Of a DNA stretch of 64,000 nucleotides, positions 3,701-64,000 are shown piece by piece. A program made the translations under genes and the position numbers. The notes below the pieces were generated by a model. The model searched no databases and was not told the origin of the DNA. It saw only the letters and a list, made by a program, of their open reading frames with translations. Location: the NCBI RefSeq assembly GCF_964355755.1, contig NC_092670.1:16739201-16803200 (forward strand), written 5' to 3'. How positions within the stretch are numbered: position 1 is the stretch's first letter; each line of letters begins with the position of its first letter. Source of the stretch: Antedon mediterranea (taxonomy: Eukaryota > Echinodermata > Crinoidea > Comatulida > Antedonidae).

Positions 3701-6700
3701 TTTTTTTCATCAGGACCCTACTCAAGGACCCTCGTAAGCTCCAGAGCCCTGGCTTTAGCCAGTGAGTGCTCATAGCCTTTACCTGACTTTACGTACTGTA
3801 ACAGTTTATGCCAAATTACTAGTTTTATACCTAAGTTTAGTCTGTATTCATCTTGAACCAAATTCAGTGAGTGCTCATAGCCTTTACCTGACTTTACGTA
3901 CTGTAACAGTTTATGCCAAATTACTAGTTTTATACCTAAGTTTAGTCTGTATTCATCTTGAACCAAATTCAGTGAGTGCTCATAGCCTTTACCTGACTTT
4001 ACGTACTGTAACAATTTATGCCAAATTACTAGTTTTATACCTAAGTTTAGTCTATTCATCTTGATCCAAATTCAGTGAGTGCTCATAGCCTTTACCTGAC
4101 TTTACGTACTGTAACAATTTATGCCAAATTACTAGTTTTATACCTAAGTTTAGTCTGTATTCATCTTGAACCAAATCCAGTGAGTGCTCATAGCCTTTAC
4201 CTGACTTTACGTACTGTAACAATTTATGCCAAATTACTAGTTTTATACCGAAGTTTAGTCTGTATTCATCTTGAACCAAATTCAGTGAGTGCTCATAGCC
4301 TTTACCTGACTTTACGTACTGTAACAATTTATGCCAAATTACTAGTTTTATACCTAAGTTTAGTCTGTATTCATCTTGAACCAAATCCAGTGAGTGCTCA
4401 TAGCCTTTACCACCTGACTTTACGTACTGTAACAATTTATGCCAAATTACTAGTTTTATACCTAAGTTTAGTCTGTATTCATCTTGAACCAAATCCAGTG
4501 AGTGCTCATAGCCTTTACCTGACTTTCCGTACTGTAACAATTTATGCCAAATTACTAGTTTTATACCTAAGTTTAGTCTGTATTCATCTTGAACAAAATT
4601 CAGTGAGTGCTCATAGCCTTTACCTGACTTTACATACTGTAACAGTTTATGCCAAATTACTAGTTTTATACCTAAGTTTAGTCTGTATTCATCTTGAACC
4701 AAATTCAGTGAGTGCTCATAGCCTTTACCTGACTTTACATACTGTAACAGTTTATGCCAAATTACTAGTTTTATACCTAAGTTTAGTCTGTATTCATCTT
4801 GAACCAAATTCAGTGAGTGCTCATAGCCTTTACCTGACTTTATGTACTGTAACAGTTTATGCCAAATTACTAGTTTTATACCTAAGTTTAGTCTGTATTC
4901 ATCTTGAACCAAATTCTTTTAATGCTTTTACAGACATAAATGAATGCAGTTCTGATCCATGTCAGAATGGAGGCATTTGTACTGATCAAGTCAACATGTT
5001 TATGTGTACATGTACATCAGCGTGGAGGGGTATCTTCTGCAATATTGGTAAACATTTTTATTTCTCTAGAAATCTCTATAAAGCATATTTACCTCCAAAA
5101 TGTAGCAAAATATATAATGTGAATCATCACCAAATTGTAATGGCTGTCTAGTTATAATGAAAAAAAAAACAATGTATACGGAGTCACATCTCTAAAGATT
5201 TCCCAAACAATCTGAATATAGAAAAGTTACTTTTACAAAATAAAATTGAAATGGAATCTGAAACTTGAATTCAGAAAACCAGCACATTGTTGGAAGTTTA
5301 GTCTAAAGCCTTGTTGAATACACTATCAAACTTTATGGGATAACAAACTATGGACATTTCATATCATTACCATATTTAGGAATATCACACTTTTTTGTCA
5401 AACTAGTGTAATGCTTCATCTAAGGTTTCATTTGTTGATGATCTTTTATTGTCATCAGATGTCAATGAATGCACAAGTAATCCTTGTTATAATGGAGCTA
5501 CTTGTATCAATATGCAGAATTATTTTGAGTGTGATTGTGCATCAGGATTTACAGGTACTACATGTCAACAAGGTGAGTTATTTATTTATTCAGACTTTTT
5601 CATTTCTTTATTAATTATTCACATACACATAATTCATTCAGTCATTAATTCCATTTATTCATTTCAGGTATTCATTTAATTCATTCAGTCATTTATTTCA
5701 GTCACTGATTTGGTCTTTAATTCCATAGTCATTTCAATCCATCATTTCAGTCATTCACATCAATCAGTCATTCATTTCAGTCAGTCATTCATTTCATTCA
5801 TTTCAATCAATTATTCATTTGATTCATTCCTTTCATTCATTCACTTCAATCAATTATTCATTTGATTCATTCACATCAATCATTCATTTCATTCACTTCA
5901 ATCAATTATTCATTTGATTCATTCACATCAATCATTCATTTCATTCACTTCAATCAATTATTCATTTGAGTCATTCACATCAATCATTCATTTCATTCAC
6001 TTCAATCAATTATTCATTTGATTCATTCACATCAATCATTCATTTCATTCACTTCAATCAATTATTCATTTGAGTCATTCACATCAATCATTCATTTCAT
6101 TCACTTCAATCAATTATTCATTTGAGTCATTCACATCAATCATTCATTTCATTCACTTCAATCAATTATTCATTTAATTCATTCACATCAATCATTGATT
6201 TCATTCACTTCAATCAATTATTCATTTGATTCATTCATTTCATTCATTCACTTCAATCAATTATTCACTTCAATCAATTATTCATTTCAGTCATTCATTT
6301 CAGTCATTACTCACTCACTTCAGTCATTTGAGTCATTTGCTTCAATCATTACTCACTCACTTTAGTCATTTACTTCAATCATTCATTCATTCATTCATTT
6401 CAGTCATTCATTCATTTCATTCACTTCAATCAATTATTCATTTCAGTCATTCATTTCAGACATTACTCACTCACTTCAGTCATTTCAGTCATTTGCTTCA
6501 ATCATTCATTCATTTCAGTCATTTACTTCAATCATTCATTCAATCATTTCAGTCATTCATCTCAGTCATGATTTCAGTCATTCACTCATTTCAGTCATTC
6601 ATTTCAGTCATCATTTCAGTCATTCACTAATTTCAGTCATTCACTCATTTTATTCATCATTTTAGTCATCATTTCAGTCATTCACTTATTAATTCAGTTA

Positions 6701-42715: not shown

Positions 42716-44117
42716 TTACACTTGTTCAATGAGTTTAAATCGTCCAACTTGTGGTTCTGGCTGAATGTGTACGAATGTTTTAAGCATGCGCTCTTCAGGT
42801 AACGTTGGCGCTACATCTCGTGTAAAATCATCCACTGGTGCTGGGATCCACTGTTCTCGTGTGAAGAACACATATCCAGGTTCCATTGCATATAATGTTC
42901 TGTCACGCCCTGTTCCAACCTGCAAAGAAAAATTTATTTTAAGACGATTAAAAAAGACTAGGATGATCAGAGTGTGTGGTTGTGTGAAAATTGATCTGTT
43001 GTGGAAGGCATTAAAACATGTTATGCTGGGTATAATTCATTTTGGCTGCACATTGTATCCAAGTTGTTAATGTGTACTTACATATTGCCCTGGTAACCAT
43101 CGATAAGCACCCTTTTGCCGCACCAGTATCATCCCAACTTGCACAAATTCTCCTGTAACAAAATACAATTGAAATAACTCTGAAACTTTTGAAGATAAGA
43201 TACCCTATTTATTCGAATACACACTGTTAAATAAACATGATCCCCACCCACGAAAGAACATCATTTGGAATTAAATGTATATACACATTCAATATTTCAT
43301 CACAACACACCAAACTATTTAAAGTATTTTTATACAAGAAGTTTCATTGTATTTTATTGATAATAATTGTGTTTTATATATAGGGGGCATTATTTTGTAC
43401 ATGTTACCATACACACCAAAACAAAATAAAAGTCTCCCTCAAATAAACACTAAACCAATGGTGGTTTTCTTTGTTACTTACCATCACGTTTTTTTAAGCC
43501 GAGACGTTTTCCTCTTCTTTTTCCTCCTGTATTTCTTTTGCTGCTACTTGCTTTTTTTGATGCACATCTTGCCGGTAATACCATTGATGCTGGCGGCAAT
43601 ATATGCCTACATGTTTGTTGTAATATAGAATTAACTAGTAAACCTAAATGTTAAGAAAGAATGAAGAAATATTGTTTCAAATTAATTTATTAAATTTCAG
43701 TATATAAATATATCACAGGGCGGTTTAGAATTCATGTTCTGTGTTGATTTGCGTTTATATAAATATATACATATTTATATACAAATAACCAAGCTATTTC
43801 ATATACTGTATGACCAAATACAAAATCTGATTTAAGCTAGGCCGCTGGTCTAAGCCTTGATGGTCCGCTCACATCCCTAGCTCAGGAGATGAGCTCACTC
43901 AGTCAGTACAGAAAGTCACGCCGACAAATCCAGACAGGCCTAGCCCATACTTAATATTAGAGGTCAAATTAGCATCAGATTCGGATTACTTAAAGTTTAC
44001 AACTTTCTCCATTTGAAAATTAAAATGTAATGAAACCATTATAATATTTAATTCTACAAATTAATTACCTTTTCCAATAGAAAATACATTTCTAAGGTGA
44101 TTTGATATAGCCAGCAT
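42716..44117 (-). CDS. MRPL27: Mitochondrial large ribosomal subunit protein bL27m
   Basis: Four exons on the minus strand: 44069-44117, 43482-43634, 43082-43152, 42716-42919; about 158 aa (human 148). Phases 1, 1 and 0 join cleanly. The product has a basic, hydrophobic N-terminal presequence, then CASKKASSSKRNTGGKRRGK and RLGLKKRDGEFV, matching the L27 N-terminus that reaches toward the peptidyl-transferase centre. The core is VQVGMILVRQKGAYRWLPGQ, VGTGRDRTLYAMEPGYVFFT and a C-terminal ERMLKTFVHI. It is imported into mitochondria and is a structural part of the mitoribosome. The ATG at 44115-44117 is my choice. The same frame stays open upstream to an ATG at 44325-44327, so a longer N-terminus or another 5' exon cannot be excluded. 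Confidence 0.91.
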
Positions 44118-53160: not shown

Positions 53161-54461
53161 TTATATATTCTGTGAGCCACATTCCTCCACTTGGACTATT
53201 GGTAACCATATAGGAGTAGATAAATGTTCATCATTATCAACTGGAGCAACAGGTTTACTAGGCTCTTGGCAGTCAACATTAGAAGGCCTAGAAGTTGTTT
53301 CTGTTGCAGCTGTTTTACTAGGCTCTTGGTAGTCAACCTTAGAAGGCCTAGAAGTTGTTTCTGTTGGAGCTGTTTTACTAGGCTCTTGGTAGTCGACCTT
53401 AGAAGGCCTAGGAGTTGTTTCTGTTGGAGCTGTTTCACTAGGCCATTGACAGTCCTCGGAAGGCCCAAGAGTTGTTCCATTTGGAGATGGCATACTAGGC
53501 CCTTTGCAGTTATTATCCTTGCTAGAGTTTTCAATGTCATTATTTTGTATCTGTTCTTTTCTTGGTTGCCTAGGTCTTGTTCCTCTGCGAATTAATTTAG
53601 GTGACTGAAAATCAGTGTTGTCAGACTGATTTGCCATTTTGTTTTTCTGTATCTGTTCTTCTTTCGGAGGGGTCGGCCTCGTCGTACTATTGTCACTACA
53701 ATTAATTAATTCTGGTGATAAACAGCCATTACTTTTTTCTAGTTCATTGCTAGAGTTCATAGTATCACTATTTATCAGTTCATTTCTTAGAGGCCTAGAA
53801 TTTCCGTTAAAAACTATGTTAGGCGATTGGCAATTATTGTCCTTTTCTTGCTCATCACAAGAGATCACCAATCCACCATCGCTACTATTCACCTCATCCT
53901 TCTGCGTAGGTCGTGACCCCCTGGCTACCCGTATCGGTGCTGGACTGTCTTTAATCTGTAATTTTTCTTCAGAATTTGATTTCTTTACTTTATCATCCTC
54001 TGTTTCATTCACAGAAAAAATTTCATCACTGATTGAAAAGGCAGCCAAGGGAAGGATTTCGGTTTCGTTTCGAACATTTTTTTGTTCCGTTTTACTATTT
54101 TCTGGTGAAAATACTGGCATATTTTCATCGTCTAATTCTATCAATTTTTCGTATGAACTATCTAACTTTGGATCCGCTAATCGAAGTGTATTTGAAGAAC
54201 TAAGTCTTGTTCTATCGTTTGATTCGTCCGCAGACAACTCAAAATCAGGTTCATCGCTTAACACAATTGCAGGCACCGGAAGAAAGGCATTGTTGTTAAT
54301 CAACTTTTGTTCAGTCATTGCCTTTAGGTCAAGAGATTCATTCGATTCATCATACGATTTCATTTTTTTCCTAGCTACTGGTGTAGGAGACCAGTGTCCT
54401 CTAAATGGGTTAGAGTGACGAGCTTTTTTCCGTAAAGATCGCTGCCTTGGTTTTCTGGTTT
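53161..54461 (-). CDS. Cav3: Cav3 last exon: long repetitive C-terminal tail
   Basis: A 1.3-kb exon with no stops begins [20 protein letters not shown] and ends VEECGSQNI and TAA. It is Ser/Thr/Asn/Glu-rich and probably disordered. Near the end are four copies of a 20-residue unit (core [16 protein letters not shown]; 60 nt). Further upstream lies a looser, roughly 45-residue repeat (for example [12 protein letters not shown] and [12 protein letters not shown]). I cannot match it to vertebrate tails, which diverge quickly. Linkage to Cav3 rests on strand, phase and lack of another start. Confidence 0.75.
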
Positions 54462-57400
54462 CTGAAAGATTAAAAATACACATTTTCCAAGTCAAAAATA
54501 TCTTTAATTTTCAAAATATAGCATAAATGTGTTGTTGTTGTATTTCAACTCAGTGCCAATGTGTGATATCATAATTGCATTTAAATTTGATTGTATCATT
54601 CCTTTCTATTTTATATTTGTAATGTTTTTTATGTGCATTATGTATTTTTATACAGCTTTATATAGTTCTATAGTATTTTTATACAGCTTTATATAGTTCT
54701 ATAGTATTTTTATACAGCTTTATATAGTTCTATAGTATTTTTATACAGCTTTATATAGTTCTATAGTATTTTTATACAGCTTTATATAGTTCTATAGTAT
54801 TTTTATACAGCTTTATATAGTTCTATAGTATTTTTATACAGCTTTATATAGTTCTATAGTATTTTTATACAGCTTTATATAGTTCTATAGTATTTTTATA
54901 CAGCTTTATATAGTTCTATAGTATTTTTATACAGCTTTATATAGTTCTATAGTATTTTTATATTTGAATTTCTTAGTTTTGACTGTCAGGCCTGCAGGCT
55001 GAAGTAATTGAGTTTATTTTGCCATCCATAGCCGGCCGATGACAACATTCTTTTTCTTATCTTGTTTTTAACTGTATATATTTATGAATGAATGAATGAA
55101 AAACACTTGCTCTTTGGTTAAAAGGTCAACCTCCAAACTTTGCAACATTTCATATTTAAAGCCCCCTTCACTACGTTTTTTAGATCTAATTTAAGATCAC
55201 AAACTATATTTAATGTAAAAATAATACTATATGGTCCTATTGCGATAACTTTTTTCGTCTTTAAACGGTTAAAAATGTGAAAAATAAGTCGATTCTAATA
55301 ATTATAGCGGCCCGCTATAAATCCCAAAATGCATTGCGCGCGGATTGATATTTTTGTTTTTCACCTGTAATTTGCCCACTTTTCTATCGATCGTGAGGCC
55401 AAAACAAATGGAAGACTCCTAACTTTTCAGCGAAAATACCGGGTTTTCCCCAATTTGTATTAACGGAGTCTGGCAAAAATAGAAAGACAATTAATGCAGC
55501 AACTATACAACGTCAGGCTAGGTATATAGCTAGCGTATGATGTTCGTACGTTACCGATGTTTACCAGCTAGGCCTACAAAACTAAGCCTAGCTAGGCTAG
55601 GCCTAAGACCGTCCACGAGAGGTCGATCGCCGCGAGCTACTTAGGTAGTGCATTGTTTCTCACTTTTTATCATAATTTACCATAAAACGTACATTTAAGA
55701 CAAGAAATGACATGGTTTAATGTTTTTAAAGTGATATATATGTATTATTTTCCAAAAAACGTCCAAAATTGCAGGGAAGGGGTCTTTAAGTAACTAACCT
55801 GCATTGATCTCTGCTTCTGTAGTTGAGCTGTCATTTTCACAATACGGTTTAAAACTAAATGGTAATGACTGAACACGGGAGACGGGTTGTTTCTGACCAT
55901 AGAGTCTATGATCCTGTAGATTTTCGCTATGACAACTGTAGCTGGTCATACCCATTTCCATACCCTCATTTTCAGTCTAAAATAAAAAAGAAGACAAAAA
56001 AGGTAATTATAAGAATGTAACAAATATGGTGATAACAAACATCCACAATTCTTGAGGAAAATGTTTGTGTGAAGTGGGCTCATTTTTACCAACGTTAGAA
56101 CAAACACATTAAGCTCTGTCTACATCAAACTTTATGTGACAAAAAATGTGCCCTTATATGGACATGATGATGTCATATCACTACCATATTTGGGCACATC
56201 ACACATTATTTTTGTCAAACTAGTTTGCTAGTGTAGACAGAGCTGTAGACAAAAGATGTGACAGTTTCACATTCACTCCTTCATCAAATTTTGAAGCGGC
56301 ATGACGTTTTTAGCTATTTAAAATTGTTTTCCATAGTTCAGTACAAAAAAAAATCGTCTGATGTTTCATAAATATTGCATGATTATGATCTTGTTCCTAT
56401 TGGTGCGTAAATTTCGAATGAACTTTTAGATTATCGTCCTCATGTCTGGCATGTCACAGTAGCTAATAGTAAAGCCTTTCATCTATAGATTTCAAATCTC
56501 AGTTGTGAAACTTTTAACAATTTAAAATTGTTGCCATAAATGAATTGGTAAAGTTATAAACAATTTAATAGTGCATTGCTAAGCTTAAAGTAGATATACA
56601 ATGCATTAATATCATCTATGAATACATATTATTATTATGAATATAGATCACAAATTATGACTATAATTATTTTGCATAGCAGACATGCTAATTATGTTTT
56701 GCATTAGCTTGAAACAATTTATAATATCAAGAAAAGACTATACACTAAAGATACAGGTTATTGAATGTGAGCTTATACAAATAAACAATTTGCTGATATT
56801 AGAACTATAATAATATGAAAAGTACTATATTATAATACAGTAGTAAAGAAAAATAATATGTATTACTTTTAAGTTAATATATTTGTGCATAGGTATAAAA
56901 TATACACAAGGTGTGTATAATCTATTAGTGCATGCAATTGATTTGAACAAAAAATGTTAAAAAAAATGCATTTTGAAAAAAAAAATCATCTAATAAAATG
57001 AAATTCTGTTAAGAGTATATAAATAATTTTTTTAATAAATTGGTGGAAAAGGTGAAAGATATATATAAGAGATAAACTAAAAGTATTATATGATGACATA
57101 GGTGCAGATCTGTAACTTAGAGTACAGGTCAGAGGTTATAAGATGACATGGGTGCAGATCTGTATGTTAGAGTACAGGTGAGAGGTTATATGATGACATG
57201 GATGTGGATCTATATTACTAGGGTACAGGTCAGCTATATATCAGACAAGCTTTATTGGGTTTTGGCACTGACCATATGTGCACCCGCCAAAAATTGTATT
57301 AATGAATAAAAATAACATGTTTTACCAAATGTTTTCTATCATAACCCAGAGAGAGAACGACTTCGGCTGGTGATATAAGCTAATGGACAGAACAAAATAG

Positions 57401-60400
57401 GGAGAAGGCAAACAAAAAACATTAAACAAACATTCATTCATCATTAAAACAATTTAATAAAGGTTAAAGGTTAATTATTAATACTAAAAATAAAGTACTC
57501 ATTTTTCATCAATGTTATTTGTCGAAATTGTTTGTTTACTGTTATTAATAGTATCAACTGATTCATTGTGGTTAGGTTAATTAATGTTCTCTCAAAAAAT
57601 AAATGTTATTTTTTCTATCAAAGTTGAGCTAATTTCACTCTTCCTTGGTTTAGTGTGTAAACAGTAAAGAGTGAAACATACTCTTTTTTGGTTGAGTGTG
57701 TAATCAGTAAAGAGTGAAACATACTCTTTCTTGGTTTTGTGTGTAATGAGTAAAGAGTGAAACATACTCTTTCTTGGTTTTGTGTGTAATGAGTAAAGAG
57801 TGAAAAATACTCTTTCTTGGTTTTGTGTATAATCAGTAAAGAGTGAAACATACTCTTTCTTGGTTTTGTGTGTAATCAGTAAAGAGTGAAACATACTCTT
57901 TCTTGGTTTTGTGTGTAATCAGTAAAGAGTGAAACATACTCTTTCTTGGTTTTGTGTGTAATCAGTAAAGAGTGAAAAATACTCTTCCTTGGTTTAGTGT
58001 GTAATCAGTAAAGAGTGAAACACACTCTTTCTTGGTTGAGTGTGTAATCAGTAAAGAGTGAAACACACTCTTTCTTGGTTTTGTGTGTAATCAGTAAAGA
58101 GTGAAAAATACTCTTCCTTGGTTTAGTGTGTAATCAGTAAAGAGTGAAACACACTCTTTCTTGGTTGAGTGTGTAATCAGTAAAGAGTGAAACATACTCT
58201 TTCTTGGTTTTGTGTGTAATCAGTAAAGAGTGAAACATACTCTTTCTTGGGTTTGTGTGTAATCAGTAAAGAGTGAAACATACTCTTTCTTGGTTTTGTG
58301 TGTAATCAGTAAAGAGTGAAAAATACTCTTCCTTGGTTTAGTGTGTAATCAGTAAAGAGTGAAACATACTCTTTCTTGGTTTTGTGTGTAATCAGTAAAG
58401 AGTGAAACACACTCTTTCTTGGTTGAGTGTGTAATCAGTAAAGAGTGAAACACACTCTTTCTTTCTTGGTTGAGTGTGTAATCAGTAAAGAGTGAAAAAT
58501 ACTCTTTCTCGGTTTAGTGTGTAATCAGTAAAGAGTGAAACATACTCTTCCTTGGTTTTGTGTGTAATCAGTAAAGAGTGAAACATACTCTTTCTTGGTT
58601 TAGTGTGTAATCAGTAAAGAGTGAAACTTACTCTTTCTTGGTTTAGTGTGTAATCAGTAAAGAGTGAAACACACTCTTTCTTGGTTTAGTGTGTAATCAG
58701 TAAAGAGTGAAACATTACTCTTCTGTAGTATAATCAAATATAACAAACATAACAATAACAATGAGACCTAAAAATTAGATGAAAAGATGAGTTTAAGAAT
58801 TAGAAGAGAAGGATAAAGTACCTTAAGGAGTGGAGTAAGAGCTGAAGCTTCTTCCTGCAGAAGAAAAAAAGAATTGTGCACATAACAACAACAGTGAAAA
58901 TAGTGGAGAGAATTATATGCTTCTCATACTAACTTAATTATTGTATAATGCTAGCACACAGGGGTGGATCTAGGATCAAATAGGGCTGCGCTAATAGATG
59001 CTACTAATTAGTCTGTCAAAAAAAGTAGTTAATTTTAGGTAATCAAATTAAGGTGTTTATATGACAAGTTAGAACACCTCTTTTTGTTCTTTAGGAACAC
59101 AGTTATTTATATCTTTTTCTATATTGAAATCAAAATTTAATTTAGCCTACAAATCCTATTTGAACTAAAAGATTATACAGTACAGATTGTCCCATGCAAA
59201 CCTTTATTGTTAAAGTAGGTACCCACAACACATGGGAAGGCATTCCTCTAAAGACATATAGGTAAGTTTACTTTTTTACATTACACACTTACATACTTGA
59301 TGCTAAATTGACTACAAATACAAAACATCCTCATTTCGGGGGGTGATTAAACTTGCAAAAACAAATGTGAAATATTTGATAGAAGAATGTAGAGTGGAGA
59401 AATAAATAGATGACGAAAATAAAGAAGTGACTTGGAGTCTTGACAAGATATTTGTTTAACATTCACACAAGAAAAACAAATGTGCATACAGTAGGTCAAA
59501 GCTCATTGTGCAACAGTGGTGAAATGTACATCTGAATATACTTTAAGTGCATCATTGAGGAATTCCAACATTCCCCACAATAACTATTATGACGTTGGCT
59601 GTACCTAGTATAGATTGAATTTTTCTATATAACTTTTTGGTTTCAACCAAGACACAACACATGGGACATACTGTAGGTGTAACTCATGTAATTTGACCAA
59701 CCATTGATCAATAAATGATGTATTTTTTATCATAATTTATTGTATTAGCAAGCAACTTATAAGCAATACTTAACCAAGTATTATTTAAAGCTTTTATAAT
59801 AAATACAAAATCACATAGTTTCTGCCACCATACATAAAGAGCACCAAAATAAATACAGGGCAAGCTTACAGGAGTATTGAGTGCAAATATCGACAAAAAG
59901 GAATTTTCATTTGTAAATGTACTGTATATGGAGTTATTATAATTTTTATTTAAAAATTCCTTTTTATATAAACAAAATTCAACCAGGGGTGCATGTGTGC
60001 TCTGTACATCATCATATTTATTATACCTTTTTGCTTTGTTCAGAATTATTTTGCGCATCCTCTGCCTGTGATAAAAAGATATTTACAGCATAATTTAACG
60101 AACAAATATTGAGGCACCATGCCAACATGTTTCAGCATCCAACAGATGTTACAATTGTGTTGATAATTTTTTTAACATTAATTAATTTTGAACAAAAGCT
60201 AGTTCACACAGCCATACTTCTGACTGCACATATCGTCAGCACCTATCTTGGTATTCAATATGTTTGTGATAGTAGCATGGTTACTCCTAAACAGTATCAG
60301 TTGTAACTTATCTTAGTGACAGAGGATTTTGAAATAGAATTGTAAAATGTACTGAACTTTAAGCCAATGTCCTATGTGCATTGCTGGATTGAATCTATGG

Positions 60401-63400
60401 GTTGAAGTAACTTTAATACAGAACATGACCAACTATTGAGGGCTACAAATAAACTAAACTTCTACTCCAAGTTTCTATCGTGTTGGAAGATTAAAATAAC
60501 AATGTTCCTTTATGATTGCATGTTGCTGATGTTAACTTACTTCACTTTGGGCAATTGCCTCTGCCAGATCTTCCTCTTCTTGAATAGTTTCATTCTCTAA
60601 TTTATGCGCTTCATCAAGATGTTTCATCAACACTGCCACCACTACATTCACAAGGACGAATTGCGCCATCAGGACGAACGATACAAAGAACAACGGAGCA
60701 ATTACTGAATTTGCACAACAGTTCTGTTTGCAACTTGCCGATGAATCACACCCATCTGACCTAAGTGTGTCCTGCAAATCAATGAATATGTAAATTAGCA
60801 TATGGATATGCAAATTAGAATATGAGTATGTAAATTAGCATATGAATATAGAAATTAGCATATGAGTATGAAAATTAGAATGAGTATGTAAATTAGCATA
60901 TGAACATATAAATCATATGGTTATGCAAATTAGCATATGAATATGTAAATTAGCAAGTATAAATATGTAAATTAGCAAATATTTTTGTATAAATAATATT
61001 TGTTGGCATGGCATCTTTTGGAAAAGAGTACATACTACTATGGCAATCTAGTCCTTTTTAAGCTCTGTCAATATTCAATGCTTTGGTCTAACAACACTAA
61101 AAGTTGAATCAATAGTGATGAAAACTGTTCATAATTCCTTATACTCTTGTCTTTGTGTTTAATAACACTCTCATTTTACTATTTACACAGGTGCTGGAGA
61201 GTCTCTTTGTTTTCATCTGTACACTAATCATGCCTTACCTTCATAATACCATTCCAATTATCACCAGTCGCAACACGGAACAGTGTGAGGAAAGCAATAA
61301 AAAAGTTTTCAAAAGAAGCATGCCTGCCAAGACCTTCACAAGGATTGTCTTCAGAACAACCTATGTGTTATATAGAAACGAATAAACAGTATAAATAATG
61401 ATTTTGTTTAGAAAGATGCTCCCTAGTACCATCTGCCATGTTGATTTTATCCCCACCAATCATCATTGCCATCACTGTATTATAAGTCATAATATTTAGA
61501 TAAAATACGGTTCAGTATTACTTCTTACCTAATCGTCCAAATAACTCAACTCCCAAAGCAGCAAATATAAAAAATAAAAGAAAGAAAAGAAGACCAAGGT
61601 TTCCAACCTGTTGGGAAAAAATTATAAATAAATAACTATCTCATAAGAACATATAAGAAGAAAAACCTGCATTTTTAGGCTAATTTGATAGTATGATCAA
61701 CTGGGCACCCTTGGGCTGGCATTTTGAAAAATAAAACAAATTTGGATGATTAAAAAAGTGAATTTTATTGAGCTATATAATTAGTTTAATTTGTTACAGC
61801 TGGCTGTAATCCCATAGTTAAATATACACCATGTTGTATACAAATTATTTTTAAATATGTCTATATATAAACTGAATTTTACAGTATACAAGTTAAAGTT
61901 ATTCCCACGCATTTCTAAAAGCAGATTTGACTTACTATAATTACTACAAAGGTAAAATCTATATATAGCAACAGTATAAAACTACAAAAACAATACTAAA
62001 AAATAATACTAAGAAAATAATACGCAACTATATAAAAATGTTATTTAGGTTTTGTTGATGAAAATCATCTGACAAACAAAAATAACTATTATGTCATGGA
62101 TGATGTCATAGATTCCAACAGGCTGTGCCAATTACAGCACTTTCAATCACTAAATACGTATACTGTATGGTCAAATATTTATTACTATATTTTGTAAAAT
62201 TGAAATGAATACTCCACAATGTTTACCTGAGGAAAAGATTTCTGTACAGTGTACAAAAGGGTACGGATGCCATGAGCATACCTTAACAACTTGAGAACTA
62301 CAAAAGACATAACATGCAAAGAAAATGGAGGGAAAAAGCAGACAATAACACTATTAAACAACATGCAACATCAAAAAAATCTATACTGGTAGTCTATAAA
62401 CAACATTCAATCTCACGTTCTCAAAAGCATTAAAAAAATTTTAAACAAATGATTATGTGTTTGAAACAAGAGCATCCAATTGATTGTTTTTCTATGTTTT
62501 GAGAACATGTGTTTGAAGTTACATACTACAATAAAAGCTAGTACAATTACATTTCAATTCAACATTGATGTTTGATGAAATATCCAGAAATTTAAAGCCA
62601 TAAGTCATCAAGCAACAGTTTGTCATAATTGTAACTAAGATTGAGGTCAACAACGGATCCAGCTGACCTACTTTTTTATTGTTGAATTGTATCACATTGT
62701 ATGTGACATACATCAAGATCAATTCAAGAACATGTATGCATTTCAATAATGGCATAATAACAATAAGCATTTGATTTTAACATTTAAATACTTGTCTCGT
62801 GCAAGATCCCATGGAAATGTACATACAAGTGACAAGGTACAGGAAATAAACATTGACTTGGTGCTGCATAAGCTTCTTGATGTCAACAATATACAGTACG
62901 ACAATCAACATACATTTCACTACATTATCAGTACATTCATGCACTGTATAGCTAATATGCAAGTGGCAACAATACATCTCTAATGTAAACCATCTTTATG
63001 GTGTAAATACAGTGAGCACAGCATGCTAGGAGGAATGGGTAATGGGTATTAAAATACATGCCAAATTTATGCCATGTACTCTCGACATTACCTGTGGTAT
63101 CGCACCCATCAATACACCCAACAGCTCACGTAAACCTTTCATAGCTTTCATTATTTTTAACACTGTAGTGTCAAAGGTCAGCGTAGAAAAAACAATATAT
63201 TATGAATATTAAAAGTAAGAGGAGAAGAAATTGAATTTGTAAATTAAAGAGGTGTATATAGACAATAAAGAATTAAAGCTTTTTCTGTTACTATAAACAT
63301 ACTGTATGATATTCAATATATCACTGTACTAACTTACCTCTAGCAATTCTTAAAACCCTCATAACACGTATAATGGTTGGATTAATTGGAATAACATCGC

Positions 63401-64000
63401 CTTCTACTTCTTCTAAACCAATTCCAATAATTGACAATATTACAATCATCATATCAAGTTGATTCCATCTATAAATACATAAAGAATAATCAATATTAAA
63501 AAACAAAATTTAAATTAATATAAGAAATATGAAGGCAAAACTATTCTGGGACTTTGATATGGATTGTAATGATGATGATGATGATGAGGATATTGGTTAT
63601 AATAATAATGATTAGCAATAACAATTCAATGACAAAATGATGATTATATATGAATATTAATAATTGGGATAAACTTACTTGTCTTTTATATAGCGTTTAA
63701 AACTGTAGGCATATATCTTCAAAATGGCTTCCAGAACGAATACAACCGTAAACACATAATTAAAATAGCGTAGAACTTCAATTAGAAGCTATAAAAGTAA
63801 AAAAAAATTAAATTTGAAAATTGAAAAAATGTGAAATATATATATATAGAGGTTTCAATTAACAAACAAACCAACCTGTGGCATATCATAGAATTCCATT
63901 CCCATGGTGATGACATTTAGAAAGATTATAGAAGCAATAATAAGGTCAAAGTATTTGCTTTCAACCATAGCATGACATCGCCGTCGTGTTCTTCCGTAAT
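53161..64000 (-). CDS. Cav3: T-type (Cav3) voltage-gated calcium channel alpha-1 subunit, domain IV and C-terminus
   Basis: 3' part of the gene; the window codes about 805 residues when one of the two alternative 71-nt exons is used. Domain IV is complete from S1: [13 protein letters not shown], then [20 protein letters not shown], the S4 [17 protein letters not shown]5 [20 protein letters not shown], pore loop [14 protein letters not shown] and S6 [19 protein letters not shown]. The pore aspartate in TGDNWNG fits the EEDD filter of T-type channels, and S5/S6 match Cav3 rather than Cav1, Cav2 or NALCN. These plasma-membrane channels open at low voltage and shape pacemaking. The gene begins upstream (beyond 64000). 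It is co-orthologous to vertebrate CACNA1G/H/I. Confidence 0.94.
53250..53480 (-). repeat. Cav3: Coding 60-bp tandem repeat in the Cav3 last exon
   Basis: The + strand word ttactaggctcttgg recurs at about 53255, 53315 and 53375, and in altered form (cactaggccattgac) at 53435. The unit is a multiple of 3, so copy number can vary without breaking the frame. Confidence 0.9.
54642..54963. repeat. 31-bp minisatellite, 10 near-identical copies
   Basis: The unit tacagctttatatagttcta plus tagtatttta-type filler recurs with exact 31-bp steps from 54651 to 54930. It lies in the last Cav3 intron. The near-perfect identity means recent expansion. Confidence 0.97.
55155..55793. mobile_element. Non-autonomous DNA element, ~640 bp, in the last Cav3 intron
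   Basis: The left end tttaaagcccccttcactac is roughly the inverse of the right end (gcagggaaggggtctttaag). The interior is GC-richer with tgcattgcgcgcgg and repeated aggcctag motifs. No ORF is visible. Its right edge is within about 6 nt of the exon border at 55799 (the donor side). Confidence 0.6.
55799..55976 (-). CDS. Cav3: Cav3 C-tail exon
   Basis: It reads [20 protein letters not shown], then [20 protein letters not shown]. 178 nt, phase 0 to 1, ending EINA and one base of E, which continues into the last exon. The RVQSLP segment recalls the Ser/Pro-rich Cav3 tail. Confidence 0.75.
56111..56246. mobile_element. Foldback element, family A
   Basis: It begins taagctctgtctacatcaaa, has the centre atatcactaccatatttggg and ends tagtgtagacagagctg. 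It lies in a Cav3 intron. Confidence 0.85.
57085..57240. repeat. ~60-bp tandem repeat, about 2.5 copies
   Basis: The unit atgatgacataggtgcagat, then gagtacaggtcagaggttat, recurs at about 57089, 57140 and 57190 with substitutions. Confidence 0.8.
57645..58725. repeat. 43-bp minisatellite, 25 copies, each with a hairpin
   Basis: The word agtaaagagtg recurs from 57663 to 58699 in 43-bp steps, with one 4-nt insertion near 58457. Each unit contains aaagagt, a 7-nt spacer (gaaacat or similar), then actcttt: a perfect 7-bp stem. It lies in the Cav3 intron between exons 58822-58854 and 55799-55976. Confidence 0.97.
58822..58854 (-). CDS. Cav3: Cav3 33-nt microexon (C-tail)
   Basis: It reads [11 protein letters not shown] between a strong ttcttctgcag acceptor and gtactt. 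Phase 0 to 0, so it may be skipped in frame. Confidence 0.65.
60027..60065 (-). CDS. Cav3: Cav3 39-nt microexon (C-tail)
   Basis: It reads [13 protein letters not shown] between cacag and gtataa. It is in frame (phase 0 to 0), so it could be a cassette. The acceptor has a second AG (caggcag) that would allow a shorter form with a frameshift. Supported only by splice signals and composition. Confidence 0.6.
60541..60771 (-). CDS. Cav3: Cav3 exon: domain IV S6 and start of the C-tail
   Basis: It reads [20 protein letters not shown], then the S6 [20 protein letters not shown], then [20 protein letters not shown], an acidic helix. 231 nt, phase 0 to 0, donor gtaagt. Confidence 0.95.
60782..60980. 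repeat. ~20-bp AT-rich repeat (atgtaaattagcatatga)
   Basis: About ten imperfect copies of atgtaaattagcatatgaat begin only about 10 nt upstream (minus strand) of the acceptor of the Cav3 S6 exon. Variants include atgcaaat, the octamer motif. Confidence 0.85.
61239..61360 (-). CDS. Cav3: Cav3 exon: domain IV pore loop
   Basis: It reads [20 protein letters not shown] then [20 protein letters not shown]. The turret has paired cysteines, and the aspartate of GDNW is the fourth selectivity-filter residue. 122 nt, phase 1 to 0. Confidence 0.95.
61529..61607 (-). CDS. Cav3: Cav3 exon: domain IV S5
   Basis: It reads [20 protein letters not shown] then ELFGRL, nearly identical to the S5 of known Cav3 channels. 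79 nt, phase 0 to 1. Confidence 0.95.
62227..62297 (-). CDS. Cav3: Cav3 alternative exon B: end of S4 and S4-S5 linker
   Basis: 71 nt, phase 1 to 0, reads [20 protein letters not shown] then SFPQ. Borders are ttgtag and gtaaac. About half its residues match the vertebrate Cav3 segment. It differs from exon A most in the linker half (LLYTVQKSF against LLGVLMGAI). Confidence 0.88.
63092..63162 (-). CDS. Cav3: Cav3 alternative exon A: end of S4 and S4-S5 linker
   Basis: 71 nt, phase 1 to 0, reads [20 protein letters not shown] then AIPQ. Borders are ctacag and gtaatg. It aligns with the family segment VLKLLKMAVGMRALLDTV. It has the same length and phase as exon B, and the two cannot both be included without a frameshift. 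Confidence 0.87.
63338..63468 (-). CDS. Cav3: Cav3 exon: domain IV S3-S4
   Basis: It reads [20 protein letters not shown] and then [16 protein letters not shown], with arginines at every third position (S4 gating charges). It ends phase 1 before the alternative exons. Confidence 0.95.
63679..63788 (-). CDS. Cav3: Cav3 exon: domain IV S2
   Basis: It reads [20 protein letters not shown] then [17 protein letters not shown], with S2 acidic residues (E in FVLEAILK) as in voltage sensors. 110 nt, phase 0 to 2. Confidence 0.94.
63876..64000 (-). CDS. Cav3: Cav3 exon: domain IV S1 (runs off the window)
   Basis: It reads [20 protein letters not shown] and then [21 protein letters not shown] up to donor gttggt. 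Phase 0 at the 3' end. The basic stretch at the start is the end of the III-IV linker. Confidence 0.92.

Follow-up and report, generated by a model that had tools for sequence, protein, structure and literature searches.

The Host Gene and Its Setting

The window, that is, the whole 64,000-nt stretch of the Antedon mediterranea genome analyzed here, carries on its minus strand exons of a four-domain channel gene. When joined, the domain IV S1-S5 exons match human Cav3.1, Cav3.2, and Cav3.3 with 399-413 bits (E values of 1e-123 to 2e-119) whichever form of the hinge they include, whereas other channel families reach at most 261 bits with the same query. According to this sequence comparison, the host gene is a Cav3 (T-type) channel gene, as an earlier note on this DNA had proposed. 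Both splice forms score alike against the Ion_trans profile (182 and 187 bits). Of the EEDD selectivity filter that marks Cav3 channels, the aspartates of domain III (SSKDGW) and domain IV (ATGDNW) are readable; the filter exons of domains I and II were not located. In the upstream DNA (C1:16803201-16863200), open frames read as the remaining three channel domains. In domains I to III of the gene, the hinge shares its exon with other sequence and is never alone on an exon. As it stands alone in domain IV only, it is only there that it could be duplicated by itself.

Tandem repeats and one further open frame were noted in the window. A 60-bp unit repeated 3.2 times at 53254-53443 lies within the long open frame for the Cav3 C terminus (53164-54510) and encodes a recurring 20-residue unit rich in Ser, Thr, and Pro. 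Minisatellites are located between Cav3 exons at 54642-54962 (31 bp, 10.4 copies, 100% matches) and 57637-58722 (43 bp, 25 copies), and another is found at 3760-4916 (105 bp, 11 copies). On the minus strand at about 42719-42925, an open frame matches Ribosomal_L27 over residues 2-24 of the 66 submitted (E 1.1e-4); it is probably an exon for mitochondrial L27, situated downstream of Cav3.

Searching the genome (354 Mb, 18 contigs) with either splice form of the joined domain IV exons gave 9 and 13 matches. The matches on contig C1 in this region correspond to the exons described below, and the strongest ones elsewhere belong to a Nav-like gene on contig C11. No second Cav3 hinge locus is present among the genome matches examined, namely those at this locus and the strongest ones on C11; weaker matches fall on contigs C1, C4, C5, C9, and C11, and gaps may hide some. 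The Nav-like gene on contig C11 (about 17619300-17634200) encodes four domains with the pore motifs D (ITLDYW), E (ILCGEW), E (ATFEGW), and A (ATSAGW), a DEEA pore that we take to be of the Nav2 type. Two tektin exons of the genome find their best matches in sea urchin chains of 8SNB (211 and 175 bits), ahead of bovine and human tektins (135 and 136 bits), which makes an echinoderm source likely; a third translated tektin stretch proved out of frame and was set aside. The structures 8SNB, 7RRO, and 7UNG are doublets from sea urchin, cow, and human, respectively (PMC10973386). Searching with COX1 for mitochondrial sequence gave no hit.

Two Hinge Exons in Series

Between the constitutive IVS3-S4 and IVS5 exons lie two exons, A and B, each encoding a version of the domain IV hinge. 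The features of this part of the gene are the following:

63338-63468, minus strand: constitutive exon IVS3-S4, placed by reading frame and splice sites; donor GAG/GTAAGT at 63338
63163-63337, minus strand: intron from the IVS4 exon to exon A, 175 nt, without GCATG
63092-63162, minus strand: exon A, 71 nt, one version of the hinge; its 3' splice site is weak and its 5' splice site ordinary
62298-63091, minus strand: intron between A and B, 794 nt, with five GCATG
62227-62297, minus strand: exon B, 71 nt, the other version of the hinge; its 3' splice site is moderate and its 5' splice site, CAG/GTAAAC, weak
61608-62226, minus strand: intron from exon B to the IVS5 exon, 619 nt, without GCATG
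61529-61607, minus strand: constitutive exon IVS5, starting in phase 0

The coordinates given in the earlier note for A (63162-63092) and B (62297-62227), together with the flanking positions 63338 and 61607, agree exactly with this layout, and the sequence confirms that the two exons are of equal length (71 nt), run from phase 1 to phase 0, and stand in series between the S3-S4 and S5 exons. Each encodes 24 residues, the first of which is completed by the G at 63338, and spans the end of S4 together with the S4-S5 linker. Joining A only or B only keeps the frame free of stops across the 248 codons inspected, IVS6 exon included. When both exons are skipped, the frame meets a TGA in the IVS5 exon, and when both are included, it meets a TAA four codons into B, which bears out the frame break that had been claimed for either case. 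Because none or both truncates the protein and a single copy restores the frame, a productive mRNA needs exactly one copy. These same two stops would also suit a gene in which exclusivity is not strict, one choice being productive and double inclusion or double skipping acting as an off switch through nonsense-mediated decay; the 794-nt intron between A and B likewise seems to present no obvious bar to A-to-B splicing. A poison-exon role alone would not, however, preserve two good hinge sequences, and we regard this explanation as very unlikely.

The resemblance of A and B to a Cav3 hinge was evaluated against all AG-71nt-GT windows on both strands of 124 kb, with the human Cav3.1 hinge as reference and BLOSUM62 as scoring matrix. 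Of 708 such windows, 132 are open in the needed phase (68 on the minus and 64 on the plus strand). B scores 63 and A 59, and the other 130 open windows do not exceed 9 (66 other minus-strand windows: mean -18, maximum 2; 64 plus-strand windows: mean -20, maximum 9; SD 9-10). As A and B stand far above these 130 windows, chance resemblance is excluded. The best hinge-like windows are thus the two exons for which a shared domain IV S4-S5 segment had been claimed, and both end in P23 Q24. Similarly, a BLAST search of the 124 kb with the human Cav3.1 hinge retrieved B (E 8e-5) and A (E 3e-4), the next match having an E value of 4.3.

No same-length twin was found for the 16 other exons scanned (best other score 6), in a scan of 18 exons including A and B that considered exact lengths only, several exons of the gene not having been located. 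A protein self-search for further duplicated exons gave only matches that read as the four homologous domains. This search is insensitive and missed the A/B pair itself, B being taken in the wrong frame and A failing to reach B at E 0.05.

Divergence of the Two Copies

A and B share 9 of 24 residues and 30 of 72 nucleotides. Their agreement differs among codon positions, with 9/24 at first, 16/24 at second, and 5/24 at third positions. The second-position value was reached in none of 20,000 codon shuffles (for first positions, P 0.09), and third positions do not agree more than independently drawn codons. As third positions look saturated and second positions stay alike, the pair reads, in this one genome, as an old tandem duplication of which both copies have been retained as coding. 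It is extremely improbable that the pair is instead an assembly artefact, a second allele or a paralogue collapsed in series. In favor of an artefact, the analysis rests on a single assembly. Nevertheless, the divergence between A and B is far beyond any allelic difference, none of the 16 other scanned exons (0/16) has a same-length copy, and no other Cav3-like hinge was detected in the 354 Mb, where weak matches or those in gaps may escape.

Compared with human Cav3.1, the sequences flanking the hinge are strongly conserved, with 15/16 identical residues on the S4 side and 24/26 on the S5 side (92-94%). The hinge itself is identical at 12/24 positions in A (50%) and 14/24 in B (58%). By comparison, the domain IV S4-S5 hinge is nearly identical among human Cav3 channels, Cav3.1 and Cav3.2 sharing 22/24 residues. 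The sequence therefore reads as a local release of constraint at the hinge, between strongly conserved flanks. Nine positions of Cav3.1 are kept in both copies (V1, L2, K3, G10, R12, L14, L15, P23, and Q24), three in A only, and five in B only; the remaining seven are changed in both copies, to different residues. The two copies do depart from the consensus in different ways, as had been claimed.

We also considered whether exon A is Nav-like. With a 49-residue query, Nav1.5 gave about 56 bits for A versus 43 for B, but these totals sum all four domains. When the hinge is compared with domain IV of Nav1.5, B shares 12/24 residues and A 9/24, and the idea was rejected.

Splice Sites

Splice sites were scored with a matrix built from 17 donors and 19 acceptors of this gene, placed by reading frame. 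The earlier note described consensus splice sites for both exons. This is correct in that all of them are GT-AG, but one site of each exon is weak. The acceptor of A falls short of every one of the 19 constitutive acceptors, and its score is matched by 32% of the AG dinucleotides in the region; its donor is ordinary, above 5 of the 17 constitutive donors. Conversely, the acceptor of B lies above 4 of the 19 constitutive acceptors, and each of the 17 constitutive donors outscores its donor. Regulated exons often carry one weak splice site. The weak site in each exon nevertheless leaves room for one of the copies to be rarely used.

Taken to its extreme, rare use becomes an explanation in which a single copy, probably B, is used and its counterpart is a relic that still has an open frame by luck. 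The weak 3' splice site of A would fit a relic, as would the greater proximity of B to human Cav3.1; if A were the copy used, the weak donor of B would fit equally. This explanation is unlikely in view of the codon positions. Over the time implied by third positions that look saturated while second positions are held, decay of an unused copy would be expected to disrupt frame, boundaries, and hinge pattern alike; the nine residues listed above are retained in both copies. We consider it highly probable, from the sequence, that A and B arose when the Cav3 exon for the domain IV S4-S5 hinge was duplicated in tandem long ago, and that they are spliced in a mutually exclusive manner.

How the Choice Might Be Made

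In the mechanism that we propose for this mutually exclusive splicing, each mRNA would include one copy, and transcripts with none or both would be cleared by nonsense-mediated decay. The choice would be regulated: the acceptor is weak in A and stronger in B, the donor of which is weak in turn. An RBFOX-type protein bound to the GCAUG motifs that follow A and closely precede B would block B and favor A, and B would be the default without this protein.

The intron between A and B contains GCATG five times, with first bases at 63061, 63026, 62942, 62366, and 62317, the last three within TGCATG. This compares with 0.63 expected (Poisson P 5e-4, for a motif chosen post hoc, after the intron had been read) and with none in either flanking intron; 7 of 617 equally sized windows of the region contain as many. 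Downstream of A, three GCATG begin at distances of 30 to 149 nt; ahead of B lie two TGCATG, whose ends are 15 and 64 nt from the last base of the intron. Within 100 nt upstream of the acceptor, TGCATG is found twice at B and at none of the 19 constitutive acceptors, one of which has GCATG. Within 200 nt downstream of the donor, GCATG is found three times at A and once each at 2 of the 17 constitutive donors. Among the 409 five-mers of the intron, GCATG ranks fifth, TG-rich words ranking higher; UGUUG is enriched more (9 versus 1.57 expected). RBFOX-like RRM exons are present in the genome, with matches of 96% over 24 and 69% over 42 residues. The Fox-1 C-terminal family (Fox-1_C) gave no match in the genome search, and the controls were equally without match. 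Based on the distribution of the motif, an RBFOX-controlled switch of the A/B choice is a possible candidate, proposed tentatively.

A similar layout is described for FGFR2 exons 8/9, where UGCAUG in the intron between the exon pair represses the downstream exon, which owns the stronger 3' splice site (PMC2880598). The likeness extends to both the UGCAUG between the pair and the downstream exon with the stronger 3' splice site. FGFR2 is, however, a receptor gene with reporter-tested regulation, whereas the case made here is based on motifs only. Exon 7a of unc-32 is acted on by RBFOX proteins and by the CELF protein UNC-75, which binds UUGUUGUGUUGU (PMC3585155). We discarded egl-15 as a second precedent for the layout: its UGCAUG lies in the intron upstream of exon 5B, which does not show it to be between the pair.

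Pairing between the first and third introns (63163-63337 with 61608-62226) is predicted at -59.5, compared with -47.7 for shuffled sequences (SD 3.9; reached in 0/60), and would loop out both exons. For the two other pairs of introns, the predicted pairing is not beyond that of the shuffles (21/60 and 60/60). No clear docking/selector mechanism for exclusive choice emerged from these predictions. Steric exclusion was rejected as the main mechanism: the 794-nt intron between A and B and the 51-nt AG-free zone before B disfavor a block by a short intron or a distant branch point.

Expected Consequences for the Channel

The two predicted channels would have the pore in common, as well as the voltage sensor as far as RIAR; the helix that couples IVS4 to IVS5/S6 would set them apart. 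They should be distinct in activation or inactivation kinetics and in voltage dependence, not in ion selectivity. Since ions would follow an unaltered path, the effect is expected to fall on activation, deactivation, or inactivation. One gene would then give rise to two differently gated T-type channels, and hinges differing from Cav3.1 at 12 (A) and 10 (B) of 24 positions would constitute a natural experiment on the coupling of sensor and gate. Changes in this part of related channels have been associated with altered gating. In weakly electric fish, Nav1.4 has a modified S4-S5 linker in domain IV that is tied to a persistent sodium current (PMC6259924), and a mutation in IVS4 of Cav3.1 shifts activation and is linked to the ataxia SCA42 (PMC7351805).

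A broader proposal is that the pair forms an ancient, echinoderm-wide, RBFOX-controlled switch of the domain IV hinge of the only T-type channel, which would provide one gene with two modes of gating, such as a transient and a sustained one; we regard it as doubtful in this extended form. If it were true, Cav3 may bear more of the spiking in animals reported to lack Nav1. Echinoderms are reported to be without Nav1 in PMC6259924, and without both Nav1 and Nav2 in PMC9694082.

Comparison with Known Systems

Consistent with the earlier note, we found no alternative exons at the Cav3 domain IV S4-S5 hinge among the openly accessible papers listed by our searches; in PMC3376122 and PMC2696442, "S4-S5" and "mutually exclusive" do not occur in the text. 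The note's other statement on the subject, that Cav3 genes have alternative exons elsewhere, in domain II of a snail, is borne out by PMC9694082. There, exons 12a/12b form an alternative pair in snail, nematode, and other protostomes. This is likewise an alternative exon pair in a Cav3 gene, but it lies in an extracellular loop of domain II (IIS5-P1) and affects ion preference, not the gating hinge. In a survey of human and fly, calcium channels have ten independent mutually exclusive exon events; the single one in Ca-alpha1T is described as conserved in protostomes (PMC9741552). This event is probably the 12a/12b pair, its position in the protein being deduced from PMC9694082.

In Drosophila para (DmNav), mutually exclusive exons C/D are located at the domain II S4-5 region (PMC4309913). 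As in that gene, an exclusive pair alters the S4-S5 region of a four-domain channel; para differs in being a sodium channel, with the pair in domain II and in insects, whereas here it is found in domain IV of Cav3 in an echinoderm. The insect Nav exons C/D at IIS4-5 are the closest precedent, one that the earlier note does not mention. PMC11828482 describes a further equal-length exclusive pair, IS4A/IS4B of cacophony (Cav2), with exons of 99 bp encoding 33 amino acids with 13 differences, whose splicing modifies the voltage sensor and shifts the activation voltage. Unlike this pair, which lies in S4 of domain I and has a length that is a multiple of three, A and B are 71 nt long (3n+2). Tandem exclusive exons are also described for echinoderms and hemichordates, in NALCN (exons 15a/15b; PMC3557258); unlike the hinge pair, these affect the pore and selectivity filter. 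The pair described here would extend the list of sites with tandem alternative exons in four-domain channels. This type of exon pair is well known in such channels; its site, the Cav3 domain IV S4-S5 hinge, appears to be new.
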